This document shows, one piece after another, positions 6,646-31,651 of a DNA stretch of 34,959 nucleotides. The stretch's first letter is position 1; each line of letters starts with the position of its first letter. The stretch spans positions 1 through 34,959 of IMG/VR virus record IMGVR_UViG_3300044729_002161; one strand, 5' to 3'. This DNA is from a virus. Under the pieces are notes generated by a model, which saw only the letters and a program-made list of their open reading frames with translations, was not told the DNA's origin and did not search any database. The position numbers and the translations under genes are program-made.

Positions 6646-7200
6646 TCAACTCCCAACTATCCATTGTTTACTATTTGCTTTATATTTTGGTAATTCTTCT
6701 TTATTCTCTAACAAAGCACTATCTAAAAATCTTATCCTGTATTGAGGATATAGCATAAAATATCCCTCATTAGTTTGTATAGCATGTAATTGTTTCCAAT
6801 GAGTAGGATGTCTTGAATACCCTTCTCCTACAAAATCTACTGTAAATAAGTACATCCCAAATTTAGCTTCTATCATGTTAGGCATTACTTCACATTCTGC
6901 ATATCTTAGTGTTTCTATAGTGAAAACCTCAATATCATCACTCACACAGTCCCACATTTGAGCATCTGATAATTGTAATTTATTATTAAACAAATCTTCT
7001 CTAAATGTAATAGCGTGAGCTGGTAGTCCAGTAAATAAAGCTCCGTTATCTAACAATACACTAAATTGTAATGCTTGGTTTTGTCTAGCTCTAACAGATA
7101 CTAAATGTCCCCCAATCTTACCTTCATAATTAGAATTGGAATCGAACAAAAAATAATTCCAAATATAAACTCTAATGGGAGGTAGATTTGCGTTATTCAT
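6646..7200 (-). CDS. Hypothetical protein, 184 aa
   Basis: Soluble, aromatic, mixed alpha/beta protein. Segments such as PIRVYIWNYFLFD, QALQFSVLLDNGALFTGLPAHAI and MYLFTVDFVGEGYSRHPTHWKQLHAIQ look like an ordered globular domain, but I recognise no family. The ATG overlaps the TGA of the cytochrome gene (ATGA), so its translation is probably coupled to that gene. No separate ribosome binding site is visible. Confidence 0.55.
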   Translation of the reverse strand: MNNANLPPIRVYIWNYFLFDSNSNYEGKIGGHLVSVRARQNQALQFSVLLDNGALFTGLPAHAITFREDLFNNKLQLSDAQMWDCVSDDIEVFTIETLRYAECEVMPNMIEAKFGMYLFTVDFVGEGYSRHPTHWKQLHAIQTNEGYFMLYPQYRIRFLDSALLENKEELPKYKANSKQWIVGS

Positions 7201-7532
7201 TTTATGAAACTTTTTAAATACTCATGTAATGATTTTAATTGAACTTCCGATAATGGTACCCTAGGCATTATTTTAGTTTTTCTTTTTGGTTTATATCCTT
7301 TTGGATACTCTCTTCTTTGTGTCTTAGCTGTGATTAATTCTAATGAAGACCCCGCAATATCCGGTCCTATTGATCCGGGTTTTGTTGGATTTACATTATG
7401 ACAAGCTGCACATCTGGTTTTATATAAAGTTCCTCCATCTTTAGCATGTCCTAGTTCTGATAATAAAAAAGAAATACCCAAAGCTGCTAGGAAAAGTATT
7501 ATAGCTTCTAAATTGTGCTTAAACATAATCAT
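7197..7532 (-). CDS. Exported mono-heme c-type cytochrome
   Basis: Predicted periplasmic electron carrier of 111 residues. It has a hydrophobic export signal (residues 10-24, IILFLAALGISFLL) with Lys5 before it and a plausible signal peptidase site after GHA at 30. Then comes the covalent heme motif CAACH at 41-45, a GPDIAG loop at 56-61 and a distal Met in KIMPRVPL at 89, all in class I cytochrome order. The C-terminal helix (SEVQLKSLHEYLKSF) fits. Heme attachment would need host cytochrome c maturation. The start at 7532 is chosen for AAGGA 5 bases upstream; 7526 and 7550 are alternatives. Embedded in the early operon with overlapping neighbours on both sides, so it is a phage gene, not an assembly join. 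Confidence 0.85.
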   Translation of the reverse strand: MIMFKHNLEAIILFLAALGISFLLSELGHAKDGGTLYKTRCAACHNVNPTKPGSIGPDIAGSSLELITAKTQRREYPKGYKPKRKTKIMPRVPLSEVQLKSLHEYLKSFIK

Positions 7533-7713
7533 CAATGTCCTTATCATCAAGTAATTTTTCTACAATAACAGGATACACTCCTAGATCCTCATTATCTATA
7601 TATAATTCTTCCATAGCTTCTTCTATCTTAGATACTGCAACATCTTCACTAGTATAAACTCCTACTATTTGAGTATTTTCTAAATCTATCAGAGTTGCAA
7701 CAAAAACTCTCAT
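7519..7713 (-). CDS. Hypothetical protein, 64 aa
   Basis: Acidic small alpha/beta protein (MRVFVATLIDLENTQIVGVY then a long helix and VYPVIVEKLL). Its ATG overlaps the upstream TGA (ATGA) and AAGGGG lies 6 bases ahead. It reads directly into the cytochrome gene, whose ribosome binding site lies in its last codons, so the two are likely co-translated. Not recognised. Confidence 0.55.
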   Translation of the reverse strand: MRVFVATLIDLENTQIVGVYTSEDVAVSKIEEAMEELYIDNEDLGVYPVIVEKLLDDKDIDDYV

Positions 7714-7907
7714 TCAAACCCCTTAAGTTTTAAATATTCTAAAAGAACTAATATATCTGATTTTGTTAAACTTGTAGTTAATTCTACTTTATCTTGCTTA
7801 AGTGAAACTATTAGAATATTATCATCAATAGATGCTTTAAAAGCTAGTTCAGAAATATCAGTTTTATGTTTAAAATTGTTTTTATCTATTGATAAAGTTT
7901 TGTTCAT
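7710..7907 (-). CDS. Hypothetical protein, 65 aa
   Basis: From MNKTLSIDKNNFKHK; the start at 7907 has GGAGG 5 bases upstream and overlaps the TAA of the transglycosylase (TAATG). Contains a beta-rich middle (ASIDDNILIVSLKQDKVELT) and a C-terminal helix (SDILVLLEYLKLKG). Not recognised. Confidence 0.55.
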   Translation of the reverse strand: MNKTLSIDKNNFKHKTDISELAFKASIDDNILIVSLKQDKVELTTSLTKSDILVLLEYLKLKGFE

Positions 7908-8269
7908 TAGTTCCTCCAAAATGAATTAACTTTAGTAAAATAAATATGCTTTGTTGGGTGTTTAATTTTCTTAGCACCTGCCTTACCTAAATTATAACAT
8001 AAAATATAGGTATTATTTAATTTATGGTAGCATTCTTTTTTAAGTTTTCCTAAAGTTCTTAAAGCTAATGCTGCATTTGTGTCCACATTAAATATCCATT
8101 TAGGATTATGAAATCTGTAATATTTTTTGTTTAACTGAAATAATCCTCCATCTTGTGTTTTAGATATAGCTATTGGATTCATTCCACTTTCTATTCTTGC
8201 CAAATTAAAAGCTATGTTGGGATCTATACCATTTAATAATGCGTAATATGTTATAAATAAATTTACCAT
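7907..8269 (-). CDS. SLT-type lytic transglycosylase
   Basis: Cuts the beta-1,4 glycosidic bond in peptidoglycan. A 120-residue protein that is almost only the catalytic domain: ARIESGMNP with the catalytic Glu at 27, then ISKTQDGGLFQLN, the second conserved block of the soluble-lytic-transglycosylase family, and later TLGKLKKECYH and YILCYNLGKAGAKKI matching the third region. There is no signal peptide, so export would need a holin or virion delivery. The start at 8269 has AAGGAG 6 bases upstream; the frame to 8338 only mirrors a small overlapping gene. Likely an endolysin or entry enzyme, complementary to the M15 peptidase at 12949. Confidence 0.8.
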   Translation of the reverse strand: MVNLFITYYALLNGIDPNIAFNLARIESGMNPIAISKTQDGGLFQLNKKYYRFHNPKWIFNVDTNAALALRTLGKLKKECYHKLNNTYILCYNLGKAGAKKIKHPTKHIYFTKVNSFWRN

Positions 8270-8348
8270 GTGTTCTCCTTTCCTGTTTATCATATACAGG
8301 ACACCATTCATTTCCGCATGGTTCTTTACAAAATCCACAAGTTTTCAT
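8205..8348 (-). CDS. Small zinc-finger-like protein, 47 aa
   Basis: Begins MKTCGFCKEPCGNEWCPVY: four cysteines (C-x2-C-x3-C-x4-C) likely to hold one zinc, followed by a basic, aromatic helix. The ATG overlaps the TAA of the preceding gene (TAATG) and GAGG lies 6 bases upstream. It runs 65 bases into the transglycosylase gene in another frame, which is long for an overlap, so the C-terminus should be checked for a frameshift. Short four-cysteine proteins of this type are common in phage early operons. Confidence 0.55.
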   Translation of the reverse strand: MKTCGFCKEPCGNEWCPVYDKQERRTHGKFIYNILRIIKWYRSQHSF

Positions 8349-9514: not shown

Positions 9515-11368
9515 TTAGTAAATTTCGCAATTACCACCAGCACAAGCCAGCTCACCTTTAAGATCCGTTGTATCTTTTTCTTCGATAACTTTAGTTAGGT
9601 CAAGGTTGGATAATTTAGAGAATAATTCCTCATATCTCTCTTTAGTACATTCTTCGAATGGGGCTTGAACATACGTATGATCGAATCTAGGAAGAACAGA
9701 TAATCCATTGTAAAATTCTCTATTATTCCACATCCACTCTCCAACTCTATCCCATTCATCTTCTCCAACAGATATAGTAGCTGATACGTTATGGGTATTA
9801 TCCCCTTTTCTATGTCCGGGCTTAATCCATTCAGAAGAAAATTTCTTAACTCTCTCTAGTAATTGGAGGGCACTTTCTGTTCTAAATATAGATCCTTCGG
9901 GTGCTTTTACTGGTAGTCCGATGATAGCTTGTGTTTGTGGCATAAAGAAGTCATCAGTAACTAATTCAGGGTGATTTTCAGCTAAATATGAATAGATAGG
10001 TTCATTTTTCCCCACTCTAATATTTCTAATATAATACTCACTATGCCAAGCATGAATACCGCTACTAGAACCAACAACTAAAGATGTTGTTCCTGAAGGT
10101 TTAATACATGTTGTTCTAGCTGCAGGATTAATTCCAATAAGTTTAGCAACTCTTTCGTTTTCTTCTTTAACTGCTTTAGAAGCAGCAGGTAAATCTAAAG
10201 GAAGTACAGCACCTGACGCAATTCCTGTCATTCCTACTCCAATAAGAGAATCTTTCTCAGTAGTTCTTTTCCATACATCTCTAAGATAATGAAAATCAGT
10301 AAATCCTGCCTGTAATGTTCCGATGAAAGCTGCAGCTCTAGCTCTTTCTTCAAAATCTTTTTGGTCTATTATATCTGAAGCATTTATTTCAGTAAGATTA
10401 CAAAATTGATTAGGTCTTAGTGCGATTTCACAACAAGGATTAGTTCCCCAATCTGCATTATTTGTAAAGTACATTCCGGGTTCTCCAGAACCAGATGCTT
10501 GTATCTTACTCCATAGATTTAGAAAAGTATCTTTGTCAATTTTATGACGAACAATAACTGCTGAATTATTAGATCTTCCTCTTTGTGGATTTGATTCCCA
10601 CCAATTACCAAATTTACATGTGAGCATGTCTTCATCATCAATATCAAATAATGAAATAAGAGCCGCTCTACGAATTCCTCCAGCATAAACAGCATCAGCA
10701 ATAAAGCAGATAATGTCATGAACTTCCAATGAAGTCAGTTTTTCTCCATCATTTTTTCTATCTAATATTCTTTGTATATTAAATAAGCATATTTTTAATG
10801 GCTCTGGACCCGGAGCTTTACCTCCGCTTGTTACAAGCTCTGCACCTTTAGGTCTTATGTCTGAAAAATCAAAATCAGGAAGAGATTTATTTTTAGTATA
10901 AGCTTCAAAGAGAGCTTTAATTGAATCACTCCATCCAACGATAGAATCTCCAATCAAGTATCTTCTAGTTTTTGTAGGTTTTTTTATTTCGGGTAATTGA
11001 GCTACATGATGTTTCTGCACTGAGAACCCTACGCCTGAACCATTCAACAAAAGAAACATAATCTCTGAAAAAGATTTATAATGATCTATTGCTAAATACG
11101 CACAATTAAATATTCTATTAGGGCTAACTTCAATGGCTCTACCTCCAAACTGAAGGGATCTCATTGATGGTAATACTTTTTTTGGAATTATAAAATTATT
11201 GTATACATTTAATATTTCTTGATATAAGTTAGGATATTTCTTTAATTGCATTGCCATATTTCTATAGCATATTTCTTCCCAAGTCTCTCTTCTCTGTTTA
11301 GTCTTATCAAATTTAGCATACTTCATATAAACAGTAATGTCAGATAGAATCTTAGTAGACTTGTCCAT
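9515..11368 (-). CDS. nrdJ: Adenosylcobalamin-dependent ribonucleoside-triphosphate reductase (class II)
   Basis: Converts ribonucleoside triphosphates to deoxy forms using a coenzyme B12-generated thiyl radical; works in the cytoplasm. At 617 residues it has the size of the monomeric Lactobacillus leichmannii-type enzyme. Visible features are FNCAY with the first active-site Cys (89), LLNGSGVGFS, NPCCEIALRPNQFCNLTEIN with the thiyl-radical Cys (312) and the second redox Cys (323), KPSGTTSLVVGSSSGIH, and the swinging C-terminal pair CAGGNC (609/614) that takes electrons from thioredoxin. No B subunit is needed, which is economical for a phage but ties it to a cobalamin-containing host. AAGGGG precedes the start. 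A different, longer family (NrdJ dimer) is excluded by length. Confidence 0.93.
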   Translation of the reverse strand: MDKSTKILSDITVYMKYAKFDKTKQRRETWEEICYRNMAMQLKKYPNLYQEILNVYNNFIIPKKVLPSMRSLQFGGRAIEVSPNRIFNCAYLAIDHYKSFSEIMFLLLNGSGVGFSVQKHHVAQLPEIKKPTKTRRYLIGDSIVGWSDSIKALFEAYTKNKSLPDFDFSDIRPKGAELVTSGGKAPGPEPLKICLFNIQRILDRKNDGEKLTSLEVHDIICFIADAVYAGGIRRAALISLFDIDDEDMLTCKFGNWWESNPQRGRSNNSAVIVRHKIDKDTFLNLWSKIQASGSGEPGMYFTNNADWGTNPCCEIALRPNQFCNLTEINASDIIDQKDFEERARAAAFIGTLQAGFTDFHYLRDVWKRTTEKDSLIGVGMTGIASGAVLPLDLPAASKAVKEENERVAKLIGINPAARTTCIKPSGTTSLVVGSSSGIHAWHSEYYIRNIRVGKNEPIYSYLAENHPELVTDDFFMPQTQAIIGLPVKAPEGSIFRTESALQLLERVKKFSSEWIKPGHRKGDNTHNVSATISVGEDEWDRVGEWMWNNREFYNGLSVLPRFDHTYVQAPFEECTKERYEELFSKLSNLDLTKVIEEKDTTDLKGELACAGGNCEIY

Positions 11369-12948: not shown

Positions 12949-13350
12949 TTAATATATCCAATGTCTTTTACCTGTTGATTTTGGTTCTCTATCATCCACA
13001 TGAATAAATTTCTTATTTCTACCATCTCCAATATTATCAAACACATTATAACATATTTCATATAGTAAATCTAAATCGTCAAGTGTTATTATTACAGGTT
13101 GAATATCTGCAGCTAATCCATTAACATGAGAGCTATTCTTAGCTCCTCCGATAGCTTCATTATGAGTTGGACAGCGATATCCAGAAGTAACTACTATAGG
13201 TTTTCCAAACTGCTCTCTTGTTTCATCTAACTTAGTTAAAAGTCCTTCAGAGACAAACTGTTCTTCGCATTTTCCACACTTACACTCAAATTCTTTAGAA
13301 TTAAAAAATTTAGAAAGTTTCTTGTTTTCGTTACGTTTAAATGTTATCAT
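12949..13350 (-). CDS. M15-family zinc peptidase (endolysin-type)
   Basis: Cleaves peptide cross-links in peptidoglycan. 133 residues with the M15 (D-Ala-D-Ala carboxypeptidase/L,D-endopeptidase) signature: SSHVNGLAADI giving His75 and Asp82 as zinc ligands and FIHVDD giving His117, with VTSGYRCPTHNEAIGGA in front. Asn/Arg context and size fit phage endolysins such as T5 Lys. A CKCGKC cluster near residue 25 is common in this subfamily. First gene of the leftward block, right at the divergent promoter; ribosome binding site GAGG. Pairs with the transglycosylase at 7907. Confidence 0.88.
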   Translation of the reverse strand: MITFKRNENKKLSKFFNSKEFECKCGKCEEQFVSEGLLTKLDETREQFGKPIVVTSGYRCPTHNEAIGGAKNSSHVNGLAADIQPVIITLDDLDLLYEICYNVFDNIGDGRNKKFIHVDDREPKSTGKRHWIY

Positions 13351-14028: not shown

Positions 14029-14454
14029 ATGAGTAAGTTTGTATCTGCCGAAGACGTAAAAGATATCGTTGCTCAAAATCAAGAATTAAAAAAGTATTCG
14101 GAAAAGCTAACAGACCTAAATACAAAATTACAAAAAGAATTAGACGATACTAAAAATAAACTAAAACATTTAGAAGAAATTGCTAAATTTAATAGTAGTC
14201 CAATTAGCGTTGGATCTAGCGAAGAAGAACTCTGTAAATTAGAAATTAATAGATTATACAATGCGGCAAAAGTAGCACCTTTGGAATTTAATCAAGTTAA
14301 AGCATTTGAGATATATGTGAAATCTCTTATGTTGATTAAAGGTAAGACTGTAGTTGATGATAAGAAGAAAGATAAGTCTGGTCAAGCAACTCTTAGCAAC
14401 GATCAATTGCTACAGCTCGCTTTGCAGGTTGTAGATGACACAAACGAACAATAG
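14029..14454 (+). CDS. terS: Probable terminase small subunit
   Basis: 141 residues; called mainly from position (20-base overlap with terminase large subunit, same order as in most tailed phages) and build: an N-terminal coiled coil (VAQNQELKKYSEKLTDLNTKLQKELD) that could drive ring assembly, then a helical domain (EEELCKLEINRLYNAA ... VKAFEIYVKSLMLIKGK) and a flexible end. It would recognise the packaging site and load the large subunit. No HTH motif is obvious, so family membership is inferred. Confidence 0.6.
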   Translation: MSKFVSAEDVKDIVAQNQELKKYSEKLTDLNTKLQKELDDTKNKLKHLEEIAKFNSSPISVGSSEEELCKLEINRLYNAAKVAPLEFNQVKAFEIYVKSLMLIKGKTVVDDKKKDKSGQATLSNDQLLQLALQVVDDTNEQ

Positions 14455-15868
14455 CCCATTACAAATAAGCCCACAGCAAGCAAGAGAAATCCTTTGGCGT
14501 AAAGGAAAGATAACCGATTTTCTCCTTGATTCAAATCAAAAATTACTAAGAGATCAAATAAAAAGTAAAAAAAGAAAAACTCATGTTGCAGTATTTTCTC
14601 GACAGATGGGAAAAAGCTATGGAGCTTTAGGTATTGCAGTAGAAGAATTATTATCTAGAAAAAATATTACAATATGCTACGTTGCTCCAAGATTAAAGCA
14701 AGGTAAAAAAATTGTTAAAACTAATTTAGATGAAATATTAAAATCATGCCCACATGACTTAAAACCTAAATTCGACAGAGACTCCTCTTCTTATGTATTC
14801 CCTAGTACAAAGAGTAAACTAGAATTGTATGGGTTTAATGCTGAAGAAATAGAATCAGCAAGGGGACCTAAAGCTCATATGATCATTGTAGATGAGTGCG
14901 GATTTATGGCAGATCTCAAATACGGACTTAGGTCAGTTCTATATCCTAAATTAAATACAACTAGAGGACCCATGATTCTAGTTTCCACTCTTCCTAAATC
15001 TCAAGGACATGAGTATTGGGATATTGTTAAGAAAGCTGAGTTTGATGGAGTTTTGATAAAAAAGAATATCTGGGATTGTCCACGTTATACAAAAGAAGAT
15101 ATTGATGATTTTGCTGAAGAAGTAGGAGGATATGATTCAGTAGATTTTAAACGTGAGTATTTAAACATAATGATTACAGATGAAGACCATGCTGTAATAC
15201 CTGAAGCTAATGAAGAGACAATGGCTAGAATTGTAAAGGAATGTCAAAGACCTCCTTATTTCGATCCTTATGTTTCCATGGATATTGGAGTAAAGGACTT
15301 AACTGGTGTATTATATGGATATTACGACTTTCTTACAGGAAAAATTGTAATAGAAGATGAAGCAACTTTTAAAGGTAGGAGTTTTACTACAGCAAATTTA
15401 GCAGCTTCTATAATTCAGTTTGAAGAAAGATTGTGGGGATTAAAAAAGCCTTTTTTACGAATAGCGGATAATAACAATTTGATTTTATTAAATGATTTGA
15501 ATATAGATTATGGATTAAGCTTTATACCAACAGCTAAAGACAATAAGCATGCGTGGTTAAATCAGATAAGAATCTTAATAGCTGAAGAGAGATTAGTTAT
15601 TAATCCTAGATGTAAACAGTTGATTTTTCATTTAAAAAATGCAACTTGGAACAAAAATAAAACAGAGTATGAAAGATCTTTAGACGGTGGACATTATGAC
15701 TTAGTAGACGCTTTAGCCTATCTAATTCGTAATATAGCATACACTAAGAACCCATATCCAAGGGGTTATGGTATGACTTATGGAGATGGATCTTTTAGAG
15801 TAGGAAGCGATAATAGAACTAAATTTGAAGATCATTTGTTAAATATTTTCAATTATAAAAAGAATTAA
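14435..15868 (+). CDS. terL: Terminase large subunit
   Basis: ATP-driven DNA packaging motor and headful/cos nuclease, acting at the portal. 477 residues with an ATPase domain (Walker A-like SRQMGKS at 55-61, Walker B IIVDEC at 150-155, coupling motif VSTLP at 183-187) and a RNase H-like nuclease domain starting SMDIGVKDLTG with the first catalytic Asp at 283, then RIADNNN and a late HYDLVDALAYL. All parts of the family are present. The start overlaps terS. Cutting style (headful or unique ends) cannot be told from sequence alone. Confidence 0.95.
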   Translation: MTQTNNSPLQISPQQAREILWRKGKITDFLLDSNQKLLRDQIKSKKRKTHVAVFSRQMGKSYGALGIAVEELLSRKNITICYVAPRLKQGKKIVKTNLDEILKSCPHDLKPKFDRDSSSYVFPSTKSKLELYGFNAEEIESARGPKAHMIIVDECGFMADLKYGLRSVLYPKLNTTRGPMILVSTLPKSQGHEYWDIVKKAEFDGVLIKKNIWDCPRYTKEDIDDFAEEVGGYDSVDFKREYLNIMITDEDHAVIPEANEETMARIVKECQRPPYFDPYVSMDIGVKDLTGVLYGYYDFLTGKIVIEDEATFKGRSFTTANLAASIIQFEERLWGLKKPFLRIADNNNLILLNDLNIDYGLSFIPTAKDNKHAWLNQIRILIAEERLVINPRCKQLIFHLKNATWNKNKTEYERSLDGGHYDLVDALAYLIRNIAYTKNPYPRGYGMTYGDGSFRVGSDNRTKFEDHLLNIFNYKKN

Positions 15869-28534: not shown

Positions 28535-31500
28535 GTGAATATAAAAATGGGGCTAAATAAACAGATTTTATCTTCTGGTTCTTTAGGAATATTCGATATT
28601 ACAGACGATTTAGTTGTTCGTGTAGTAGTAGAAAACGCTGGAGCTACTAACAACATAGTAATTCGTGGAAGAATTAAAGGACAAGCGGCTTTTACCACAT
28701 TGCAAAACATTGCAGGTTCAATTAGCACAACTGTTACTGTAGCAACTTACGATGAGATTGAAATAGACTGTACTGTTTATGATTCTCTCAGTTCTTCTGT
28801 AAAAGTAATAGCAACATCTTTTGATCAGGATGTATCTTCTACTGGCATACCAGTAGGAGCAGCCACTGCAGTAAAACAAGATGTAGGAAATGCTAGCTTA
28901 GCATCTATTGATTCTAAAACTCCTGCTCTTGTTGGAGGAAAAGTTCCTGTAGATGTCAGTAGCATTAGCGGAACAGTTGAAATTACAAACGACGTAGGAA
29001 ATGCTATACCTATTTCAGCAGCTAGTTTACCTCTTCCAACAGGTGCTGCTACTTCTGCAGATCAAGTTACAGCAAACGCTAGTTTATCTAGTATTGATTC
29101 TAAGCTCGGAGCATTAGGTCAAAATAGTATGGCTAACTCTGCTTCTGTAGCAATAGCTTCAGATCAGACAGCTATTCCAGTTTCTGCAGCAGCATTACCT
29201 CTCCCAACAGGAGCAGCAACAGAATCTACTTTATCAATTTTAAACACTAAAGTTCCTGCTAATCTCACAGTAAGCTCCACTAGATTATTAGTTGATAACT
29301 CTGGAGTAACTCAACCTGTTTCTGGATCTGTTTCAGTTTCAAATTTACCTGCAACACAAGATGTAGAAATCGTAGCCTCTATTCCTGCTGGTACGAATAA
29401 CATTGGAGATGTCGATGTAGCATCTCTTCCTATATCATACAATGCTGGAGCAACAGACGCACAAACTCAAAGAGTTATAATTGCATCCGATCAATCTGCA
29501 ATACCGATAAGCGGTACAATCACCGCATCAATTACAGGAGTTTCTACAGAAGCAAAACAAGATGTAGGGAATACTAGCCTATCTTCAATTGATAGTAAGA
29601 TTCCTTCATTAACTTTAGGAGGAAGACTTCCTGTAGATATCGGAGGTAATGGTTCTATCACTGTAACTTCTGGAACTATTACAGTTCAGAATGAAGTAGA
29701 AGTTAATAATGATGTAGGAAATCCTATTCCTGTTTCAGCTTTATCTCTACCATTACCAACGGGAGCTGCTACTAGTGCTAATCAAACAAATGGCAATCAA
29801 AAAAGTCAACTTGTTGATGGTTCTGGAAATGTAATCAGTTCCACTAGTAATGCGTTAGATGTTAACGTAAAATCGGGAGTAGCTTTAACTGTTGAATTAA
29901 GTGAAGCAAATGACTCAGTTGCTGTTTTTGGAAACGATGGAACAACTAATAGGGCACTTAAAACTGATGCAAATGGGGAGCTTCAAATTGATGTTCTATC
30001 TAGTGCATTACCTACAGGTGCTGCCACTTCTGCTTTACAAACAACAGGAAACGCTAGTTTGTCAAGTATTGATGGAAAGTTAACTACAAGTGTAAACGGA
30101 CTACTTGTAGATGGATCAGCAGTAACTCAGCCTGTTTCTGCTTCAAGCTTACCTCTTCCTTTAGGTGCAGCTACAGAAACCACTCTATTAGCATTAAATA
30201 CAAAAGTACCAGCAAATTTAACAGTATCTTCCACAAGATTACTAGTGGATAATTCTGGAGTAACTCAGCCTGTTTCAGCGTCCAGTTTACCGCTTCCTAC
30301 AGGTGCAGCTACGGAATTAACTCTTGACTCAGTAAAAACAGCAGTAGAATCTTTAGAGACAAAAGATTTCGCTACAGAGGCTACTCTCTCTTCAATAAAT
30401 ACCGAAGTAAATACTTTAAATTCAGTAGACTTCGCTACAGAAAATACATTATCTTCCATAAATACAAAAATACCAAGTTTAGGTCAAGCCGCAATGACTG
30501 GATCATCTCCAGTAGTAATAGCCTCTGATCAATCAGCAATTCCAGCATCTCAATCTGGAACTTGGAATATTAATAATGTTTCAGGTACAGTATCTCTTCC
30601 AACTGGAGCATCCACTTCAGCTTTACAAACAACAGGAAACACTAGTCTTTCTAATATTGATGGAAAATTACCTGCTACACTAGGACAAAAAGTAAGTAAT
30701 GATTCTCTTTCTGTTGTAATAGCTTCTGATCAATCTCCACTTCCTATATCAGGAACAATAAGCTCCACACAAGTATCTGGAGTAGAAGATCTCACTAATT
30801 CCTCGACAACACCTTTACTAGCTAACGGTGTTTTTACAGGTGCGGCATTTAATGTAACAGGTTATGTTTCAATTAATGTTAATGTAAAATCAGATGTGCC
30901 TTCCGCTACTGGAGGGGTTAAAGTAGAATTTTCTACTGATGGAGTTAATTGGGATCACTCTCATTCTACTTCCTACACTGCAGCTACTGGAGTTGGATAT
31001 ATATTTAATGTAGAATATAAATATGCTCGTATAGTTTACACAAATGGAACATCTCCTCAAACATATTTCCGCTTACAAACCATTTTTAAAACAACTCTAA
31101 CGAAGTCTTCTTTATACACTTTAAGCCAAGCAATTAATAGCAATATGTTTGCTGAACTCGGAAGAAGTGTCATAACAGGAGAAACTACTGGTGGAGGTGG
31201 AGGATATGTTAATGTAAAAGTTGATCCTTCTGGAGCAATGATTACTGCTACCACAATTGATACAGCACTCCCTGCTGGTACTAATAATATCGGAGATGTA
31301 GATGTAGCAACTCTACCGATAGCTTACAATGCTGGAGCAACAGACGCACAGACTCAAAGAGTTGTTGTTGCTAACGATCAAACTATTCCAATATCTGCTT
31401 CGTCTTTACCACTACCGACCGGAGCTGCAACTTCAGCTTTACAGACTACAGGTAATTCAACCTTATCGTCATTTAGTGCTAAATCTGGTGCTAGTATGGT

Positions 31501-31651
31501 AGCTGTTGCACATGACGAAGTTGTGGTAACATATGTAGGAGCTACAACTTTAATATCTACAGTTGTATACAAATTAGCTACAGTAACAGTAGCAACTCTT
31601 ACTTTCTCTTATGATGGTTCAAATAGATTAATTGGCGTTGTGAGGTCATAA
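28535..31651 (+). CDS. Large repetitive appendage protein, 1038 aa
   Basis: Start GTG with AAGGAG 5 bases upstream. After an N-terminal beta domain (LNKQILSSGSLGIFDITDDLVVRVVVENAG) it is made of about eight imperfect repeats marked by SLPLPTGAAT, many followed by SLSSIDxKxPxLGQ and VVIASDQSxIPIS. Such Ser/Thr/Ala/Val-rich repeats suggest a beta-helical or beta-solenoid shaft. Near residue 750-870 a single globular domain (GVKVEFSTDGVNWDHSHS) breaks the pattern, and one more repeat closes the chain. A 27-residue block (29243-29323) recurs identically at 30197-30277. Likely a long virion spike or fibre. Confidence 0.75.
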   Translation: MNIKMGLNKQILSSGSLGIFDITDDLVVRVVVENAGATNNIVIRGRIKGQAAFTTLQNIAGSISTTVTVATYDEIEIDCTVYDSLSSSVKVIATSFDQDVSSTGIPVGAATAVKQDVGNASLASIDSKTPALVGGKVPVDVSSISGTVEITNDVGNAIPISAASLPLPTGAATSADQVTANASLSSIDSKLGALGQNSMANSASVAIASDQTAIPVSAAALPLPTGAATESTLSILNTKVPANLTVSSTRLLVDNSGVTQPVSGSVSVSNLPATQDVEIVASIPAGTNNIGDVDVASLPISYNAGATDAQTQRVIIASDQSAIPISGTITASITGVSTEAKQDVGNTSLSSIDSKIPSLTLGGRLPVDIGGNGSITVTSGTITVQNEVEVNNDVGNPIPVSALSLPLPTGAATSANQTNGNQKSQLVDGSGNVISSTSNALDVNVKSGVALTVELSEANDSVAVFGNDGTTNRALKTDANGELQIDVLSSALPTGAATSALQTTGNASLSSIDGKLTTSVNGLLVDGSAVTQPVSASSLPLPLGAATETTLLALNTKVPANLTVSSTRLLVDNSGVTQPVSASSLPLPTGAATELTLDSVKTAVESLETKDFATEATLSSINTEVNTLNSVDFATENTLSSINTKIPSLGQAAMTGSSPVVIASDQSAIPASQSGTWNINNVSGTVSLPTGASTSALQTTGNTSLSNIDGKLPATLGQKVSNDSLSVVIASDQSPLPISGTISSTQVSGVEDLTNSSTTPLLANGVFTGAAFNVTGYVSINVNVKSDVPSATGGVKVEFSTDGVNWDHSHSTSYTAATGVGYIFNVEYKYARIVYTNGTSPQTYFRLQTIFKTTLTKSSLYTLSQAINSNMFAELGRSVITGETTGGGGGYVNVKVDPSGAMITATTIDTALPAGTNNIGDVDVATLPIAYNAGATDAQTQRVVVANDQTIPISASSLPLPTGAATSALQTTGNSTLSSFSAKSGASMVAVAHDEVVVTYVGATTLISTVVYKLATVTVATLTFSYDGSNRLIGVVRS
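29243..30277 (+). repeat. Protein-identical, codon-scrambled repeat pair
   Basis: 29243-29323 and 30197-30277 encode the same 27 residues (beginning NTKVPANLTVSS). Of 27 codons, 13 differ and 16 of 81 bases are changed, with no amino-acid change. The interval given spans both copies. Confidence 0.8.

Follow-up and report, generated by a model that had tools for sequence, protein, structure and literature searches.

Genomic location of the cytochrome gene

The stretch of DNA analyzed here (the window; 34,959 nt) is an IMG/VR virus record, IMGVR_UViG_3300044729_002161, with genes for a terminase large subunit (TerL), a portal protein, a major capsid protein and a ribonucleotide reductase. The TerL gene (14435..15868, plus strand; phrog_2, E 4.2e-26) was used to define the phage clade to which the window belongs. 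Since contigs related by capsid or TerL reach 80-90 kb, the window is probably a fragment. The ribonucleotide reductase encoded at 9515-11368 (minus strand) is of the B12-dependent type; it shares 63% identity with a 'hypothetical protein' from Microcystis phage Mel-JY01 and 59-61% with genes of Oceanospirillum and Vibrio phages which are annotated as 'recombinase', likely a misannotation. Two peptidoglycan enzymes are found at 7907-8338 and 12949-13350 (both minus strand), an SLT lytic transglycosylase and an M15 peptidase endolysin, and a protein of 1038 aa with many LPLPTGAATS-like repeats, perhaps a tail fibre, is encoded at 28535-31651 (plus strand).

The cytochrome c gene is located at 7197..7532 on the minus strand and is read from 7532 to 7197. 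The plus strand of this interval is full of stops, and the minus-strand frame is open between a TTG at 7550 and the stop at 7197. The ATG at 7532 is the best start codon in this frame, because a Shine-Dalgarno sequence (AAGGA; 7538..7542, minus strand) ends 5 nt ahead of it; the gene limits proposed in an earlier reading made from the sequence alone (the sequence-only reading) could thus be retained. The resulting precursor comprises 111 aa, MIMFKHNLEAIILFLAALGISFLLSELGHAKDGGTLYKTRCAACHNVNPTKPGSIGPDIAGSSLELITAKTQRREYPKGYKPKRKTKIMPRVPLSEVQLKSLHEYLKSFIK. Phage genes overlap the cytochrome gene on both sides, as had been noted before: upstream, a gene for a protein of 64 aa to which no function was assigned (7519..7713, minus strand) shares 14 nt with it, and downstream, a gene at 6646..7200 (minus strand; phrog_3704, E 3.6e-31) overlaps by ATGA (7200-7197). 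The base composition of the cytochrome gene is similar to that of the neighbouring genes.

The phrog_3704 family of the downstream gene has matches in 96 GenBank phages, mostly cyanophages and also Pelagibacter and Flavobacterium phages. We do not believe that this gene encodes a ferredoxin, as the name of the family would imply, since its product contains two cysteines and no iron-sulphur or ferredoxin cysteine motif. The database names 'ferredoxin' and 'PurM' for phrog_3704 both look wrong.

The protein is a class I cytochrome c

The assignment as a cytochrome c is based on a Pfam match, on hydropathy and charge, and on an AlphaFold2 model. A search against cytochrome c profiles, which had been proposed earlier as a check, was passed by the window protein: it matches PF00034 (Cytochrom_C) with an E value of 4.3e-8 and a score of 34.8 bits, the cut-off being 21.3. 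The translation bears out the previously described order of a putative signal sequence, the haem-attachment motif CAACH (7398..7412, minus strand), a GPDIAG loop and a distal Met (in TKIMP). The hydrophobic signal segment, AIILFLAALGISFLL, has a mean hydropathy of 2.8 over 15 residues and is compatible with either a signal peptide or a membrane anchor; a likely cleavage site, read by eye, is located between GHA and KD. The mature part would comprise approximately 81 aa with a predicted pI of about 10. The presumed sixth haem ligand, a Met (codon 7268-7266), lies within the subfamily signature YPKGYKPKRKTKIMP (7263..7307, minus strand) and is preceded by a basic cluster.

A PDB sequence search with the window protein also retrieved cytochromes c. 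The AlphaFold2 model, which was built on a form of 109 aa starting at the ATG at 7526, has a mean pLDDT of 80.8, with values of mostly 85-93 in the haem domain (means of successive blocks of 10 residues from residue 31 of the model: 92, 91, 87, 92, 85, 75, 93, 89). Its helices (31-38, 40-43, 62-71 and 94-105) are consistent with a class I cytochrome c. The 50 Foldseek matches listed for the PDB are without exception cytochromes c or proteins with a haem-c domain. The best of them has a probability of 1.00 but an E value of just 0.016, so the fold is supportive and alone not decisive. With respect to CcoP of the cbb3 oxidase, the window protein scores 24.6 bits against the cut-off of 27 for PF13442 and does not match TIGR00782. 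Three other phage members (see below) pass PF13442 with 27.5-36.6 bits, a profile which overlaps PF00034, and none of the phage members tested reaches the cut-off of TIGR00782. Judged from its sequence and predicted structure, the window protein is a class I monohaem c-type cytochrome encoded by a phage, and it is probably exported. The proposal of an exported phage c-type cytochrome made in the sequence-only reading is thus supported by sequence, model and comparison, with export being probable.

A subfamily carried by phages of two builds

Scans of IMG/VR detected the same cytochrome subfamily in five other phages, namely four members of the window's clade, G001 (L002; 21 kb), G002 (L003; 36 kb), G003 (L004; 88 kb) and G639 (L199; 75 kb), and additionally G676 (L202; 104 kb). 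The window and the four clade members have a capsid family in common that G676 does not share; G676 is a contractile-tailed phage that encodes a tail sheath and whose capsid belongs to phrog_212. The subfamily is thus carried by phages of two builds. In G676, a ribonucleotide reductase gene and a ThyX-like match lie in the vicinity of the cytochrome gene.

Throughout the six phage proteins, the two cysteines and the histidine of the haem-attachment motif, the GP, and the residues YP, Y, P, R, T and MP (including the distal Met) of a subfamily signature, YPxxYxPxRxTxxMP, are invariant. N-terminal hydrophobic segments were recognized by hydropathy in four members and by visual inspection in the remaining two, and cleavage sites were likewise placed by eye. 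The net charge of the mature proteins is +11 to +13 in five of the six, and +5 in G676; some of the bacterial homologues found reach +8 to +10, so the basic charge is not special to the phage proteins.

No relative of the cytochrome was found in PHROGs, INPHARED (50,697 GenBank phages), PLSDB or BFVD, which agrees with the earlier statement that such proteins are not commonly reported from phages. Pfam searches of 75 clade records gave five matches, and three of these records had been chosen for their cytochrome; at least two of the remaining 72 records carry one (G639 and G634), a lower bound because many records are fragments. The G639 protein scores under the Pfam cut-off and was assigned by its signature. 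G634, also a member of the clade, encodes a different, c553/c4-like cytochrome c (L198, 1495-1773, minus strand), which in the phylogenetic tree is located apart from the other phage cytochromes among c4/c553-like domains (support 80/79) and is apparently a second acquisition. The G634 gene adjoins small membrane-protein genes.

The only firm grouping of the subfamily in the tree comprises the window, G001 and G002 (97/97); G003, G639 and G676 have no firm deeper placing, so the subfamily may have a single origin or more than one. The cytochromes of G001 and G003 are 61% and 38% identical to that of the window, close to the respective values for TerL (61% and 41%), whereas G002 shows 59% identity for the cytochrome and 42% for the capsid protein. 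Identity therefore follows the core proteins in G001 and G003 but not in G002, and the pattern is best explained by an old, sporadically carried cargo gene that has to some extent been exchanged between phages.

A scan of genome contigs using only the motifs YKT[RK]CA[AS]C and HN[VL]NPTKP gave generic matches from Acidobacteriota, Campylobacterota and SAR86. The phage signature was absent from the inspected matches of profile searches of 398 Pseudomonadota, 200 Campylobacterota and 247 Acidobacteriota genomes. TerL, portal and capsid proteins of the clade are nearest to those of a Silvanigrella aquatica phage, with merely 25-31% identity, which gives a weak hint at the host; this phage itself carries no cytochrome.

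The gene as cargo of a variable slot

The comparison with related contigs indicates how the gene is placed in the phage genome. In L034, whose TerL is 87% identical to that of the window, the 64-aa gene runs straight into the homologue of the 6646-7200 gene and the junction is closed (1097-2036). Between the same two border genes, L043 (2134-3060), L047 and L048 contain a gene for a ClpX-like AAA ATPase and L046 (2558-3208) contains thyX, and a ThyX gene is also present in rearranged versions of the region in L033 and L035. The closed junction in L034 together with the ThyX and ClpX-like contents elsewhere argues for a cargo slot in which the cytochrome gene is the cargo, and against a chimeric contig. 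A spermidine-synthase-like gene is located two genes beyond the slot in L034 (2033-3070).

Cytochromes c are common host genes. Cellular contamination of viromes is a known problem (PMC3877843), and a cytochrome gene could also enter a virus record through the joining of host sequence to a phage contig or through the misbinning of a bacterial island. For the window, we regard this as extremely improbable: the gene overlaps phage genes by ATGA and by 14 nt, its base composition is like that of its neighbours, the corresponding site of L034 is empty, and the same subfamily is present on five further phage contigs with different flanks. A contig chimera, named at the outset as the finding that would speak against a phage cytochrome, was thus rejected.

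The two overlapping neighbours had been suggested as possible partners of the cytochrome. The 6646-7200 gene is kept without a cytochrome match in L034, L035, L043, L046, L047 and L048, and the 64-aa gene in L033, L034, L043, L046, L047 and L048. We therefore rejected both as dedicated partners.

Selection and possible functions

Pairwise comparison of the window, G001 and G002 yielded dN values of 0.24-0.28 and pS values of 0.70-0.78, with synonymous differences near saturation; by this measure, the window cytochrome is under purifying selection. Most relatives have no cytochrome gene, which indicates that it is dispensable. A short protein encoded by a dispensable gene, among small genes of unassigned function in a type of region that holds host-takeover genes, might benefit the phage by means other than electron transfer. 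For example, it might compete with the host cytochrome c for haem, for the cytochrome c maturation (Ccm) system or for docking sites, thereby lowering respiration (in host takeover or the timing of lysis), or it might exclude other phages. However, the haem-binding residues, the GP and the distal Met are invariant across proteins that are just 31-36% identical, as would be expected if a redox function had been kept, and such a role is thus improbable.

The sequence-only reading had proposed that the cytochrome keeps host respiration going late in infection or redirects electrons to a terminal oxidase, and this is still the best explanation. We lean towards a phage-supplied, basic, soluble periplasmic carrier that passes electrons to a terminal oxidase of the host during infection, for which we infer the partner, the host and the attachment of haem. 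The cytochrome would be made during infection together with the surrounding operon, its precursor would be exported by Sec, and haem would be added in the periplasm by the Ccm system of the host, which we assume to be present. The soluble, strongly basic carrier could then be reduced by a bc1-type complex of the host or another periplasmic donor and hand its electrons to an acidic docking site of the host terminal oxidase, assuming that the host has an oxidase that accepts cytochrome c. Proton pumping and ATP supply might in this way be sustained after synthesis of the host cytochrome stops, or one oxidase might be favoured over another; the benefit would fall in late infection. The carriage of the subfamily by phages of two builds likewise suggests that host respiration is kept up or re-routed during phage multiplication. 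No oxidase, bc1 or Ccm genes were recognized among the window proteins scanned, and the direction of electron flow thus has no support from a partner gene.

Class I cytochromes c feed many periplasmic enzymes other than oxidases. An exported carrier might accordingly serve a dihaem peroxidase, which would remove peroxide in the infected cell, a reductase of nitrite or of nitric oxide, or a system oxidizing inorganic substrates, for instance Sox. The best NCBIfam match of the window cytochrome is indeed SoxX (TIGR04485), though at 21.8 bits far under the cut-off of 61, and published phages carry soxC, soxD and soxYZ (PMC8190135) as well as nirK and norB (PMC8115048). We nevertheless consider a non-oxidase enzyme as the partner rather unlikely, as none of the NCBIfam equivalog cut-offs is reached and no Sox, peroxidase or denitrification genes were recognized among the window proteins scanned.

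A more far-reaching scenario seems doubtful to us. The subfamily might represent a phage-specific cytochrome c lineage which is passed between differently built phages sharing a host group and which rewires the respiratory chain: the basic stretch that is conserved next to the haem ligand would dock with an oxidase or reductase that is poorly served by the host carrier, and the phage would thereby gain an electron route of its own.

Comparison with known systems

With class I cytochromes c (PF00034; c551, c553, c6 and the mitochondrial type) the window protein shares a putative signal sequence, a single CxxCH followed by GP, the distal Met before the C-terminal helix, the order of the helices and a mature size of approximately 80 residues. 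It differs in being encoded by a phage, in the YPxxYxPxRxTxxMP signature, which is absent from the bacterial matches inspected, and in reaching no equivalog cut-off.

We found no published stand-alone cytochrome c of a phage in the open-licence PMC literature, and an earlier report elsewhere is possible; a study of nitrogen-cycle viruses observed no cytochromes in phages (PMC8115048). The most similar cases that we found in print are oxidase genes reported from viromes (PMC3474794, PMC3877843) and soxD on two phage contigs, where one or both haem motifs are missing and where in one case soxD is located beside soxC (PMC8190135). Phage soxD likewise codes for a protein of the cytochrome c type, but this is part of a sulfane dehydrogenase, whereas the window protein stands alone and has all ligands. 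What makes it of interest is that a complete, putatively periplasmic stand-alone cytochrome c with all haem ligands appears to be kept by selection in several phages.

Electron-carrier genes are well known in cyanophages, which encode plastocyanin (PetE), ferredoxin and PTOX. Like these, the cytochrome is a small electron-transport protein encoded by a phage; it would carry haem c in place of the copper of plastocyanin and would need the Ccm system of the host, and no photosynthesis gene was recognized in the window. Its action might be likened to that of cyanophage plastocyanin, a protein for which electron donation to cytochrome c oxidase has been proposed (PMC10452541), but in a respiratory and not a photosynthetic setting. 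If this is true, phage control of host energy would extend to the part of the respiratory chain that lies outside the cytoplasm and would depend on the haem-attachment machinery of the host.
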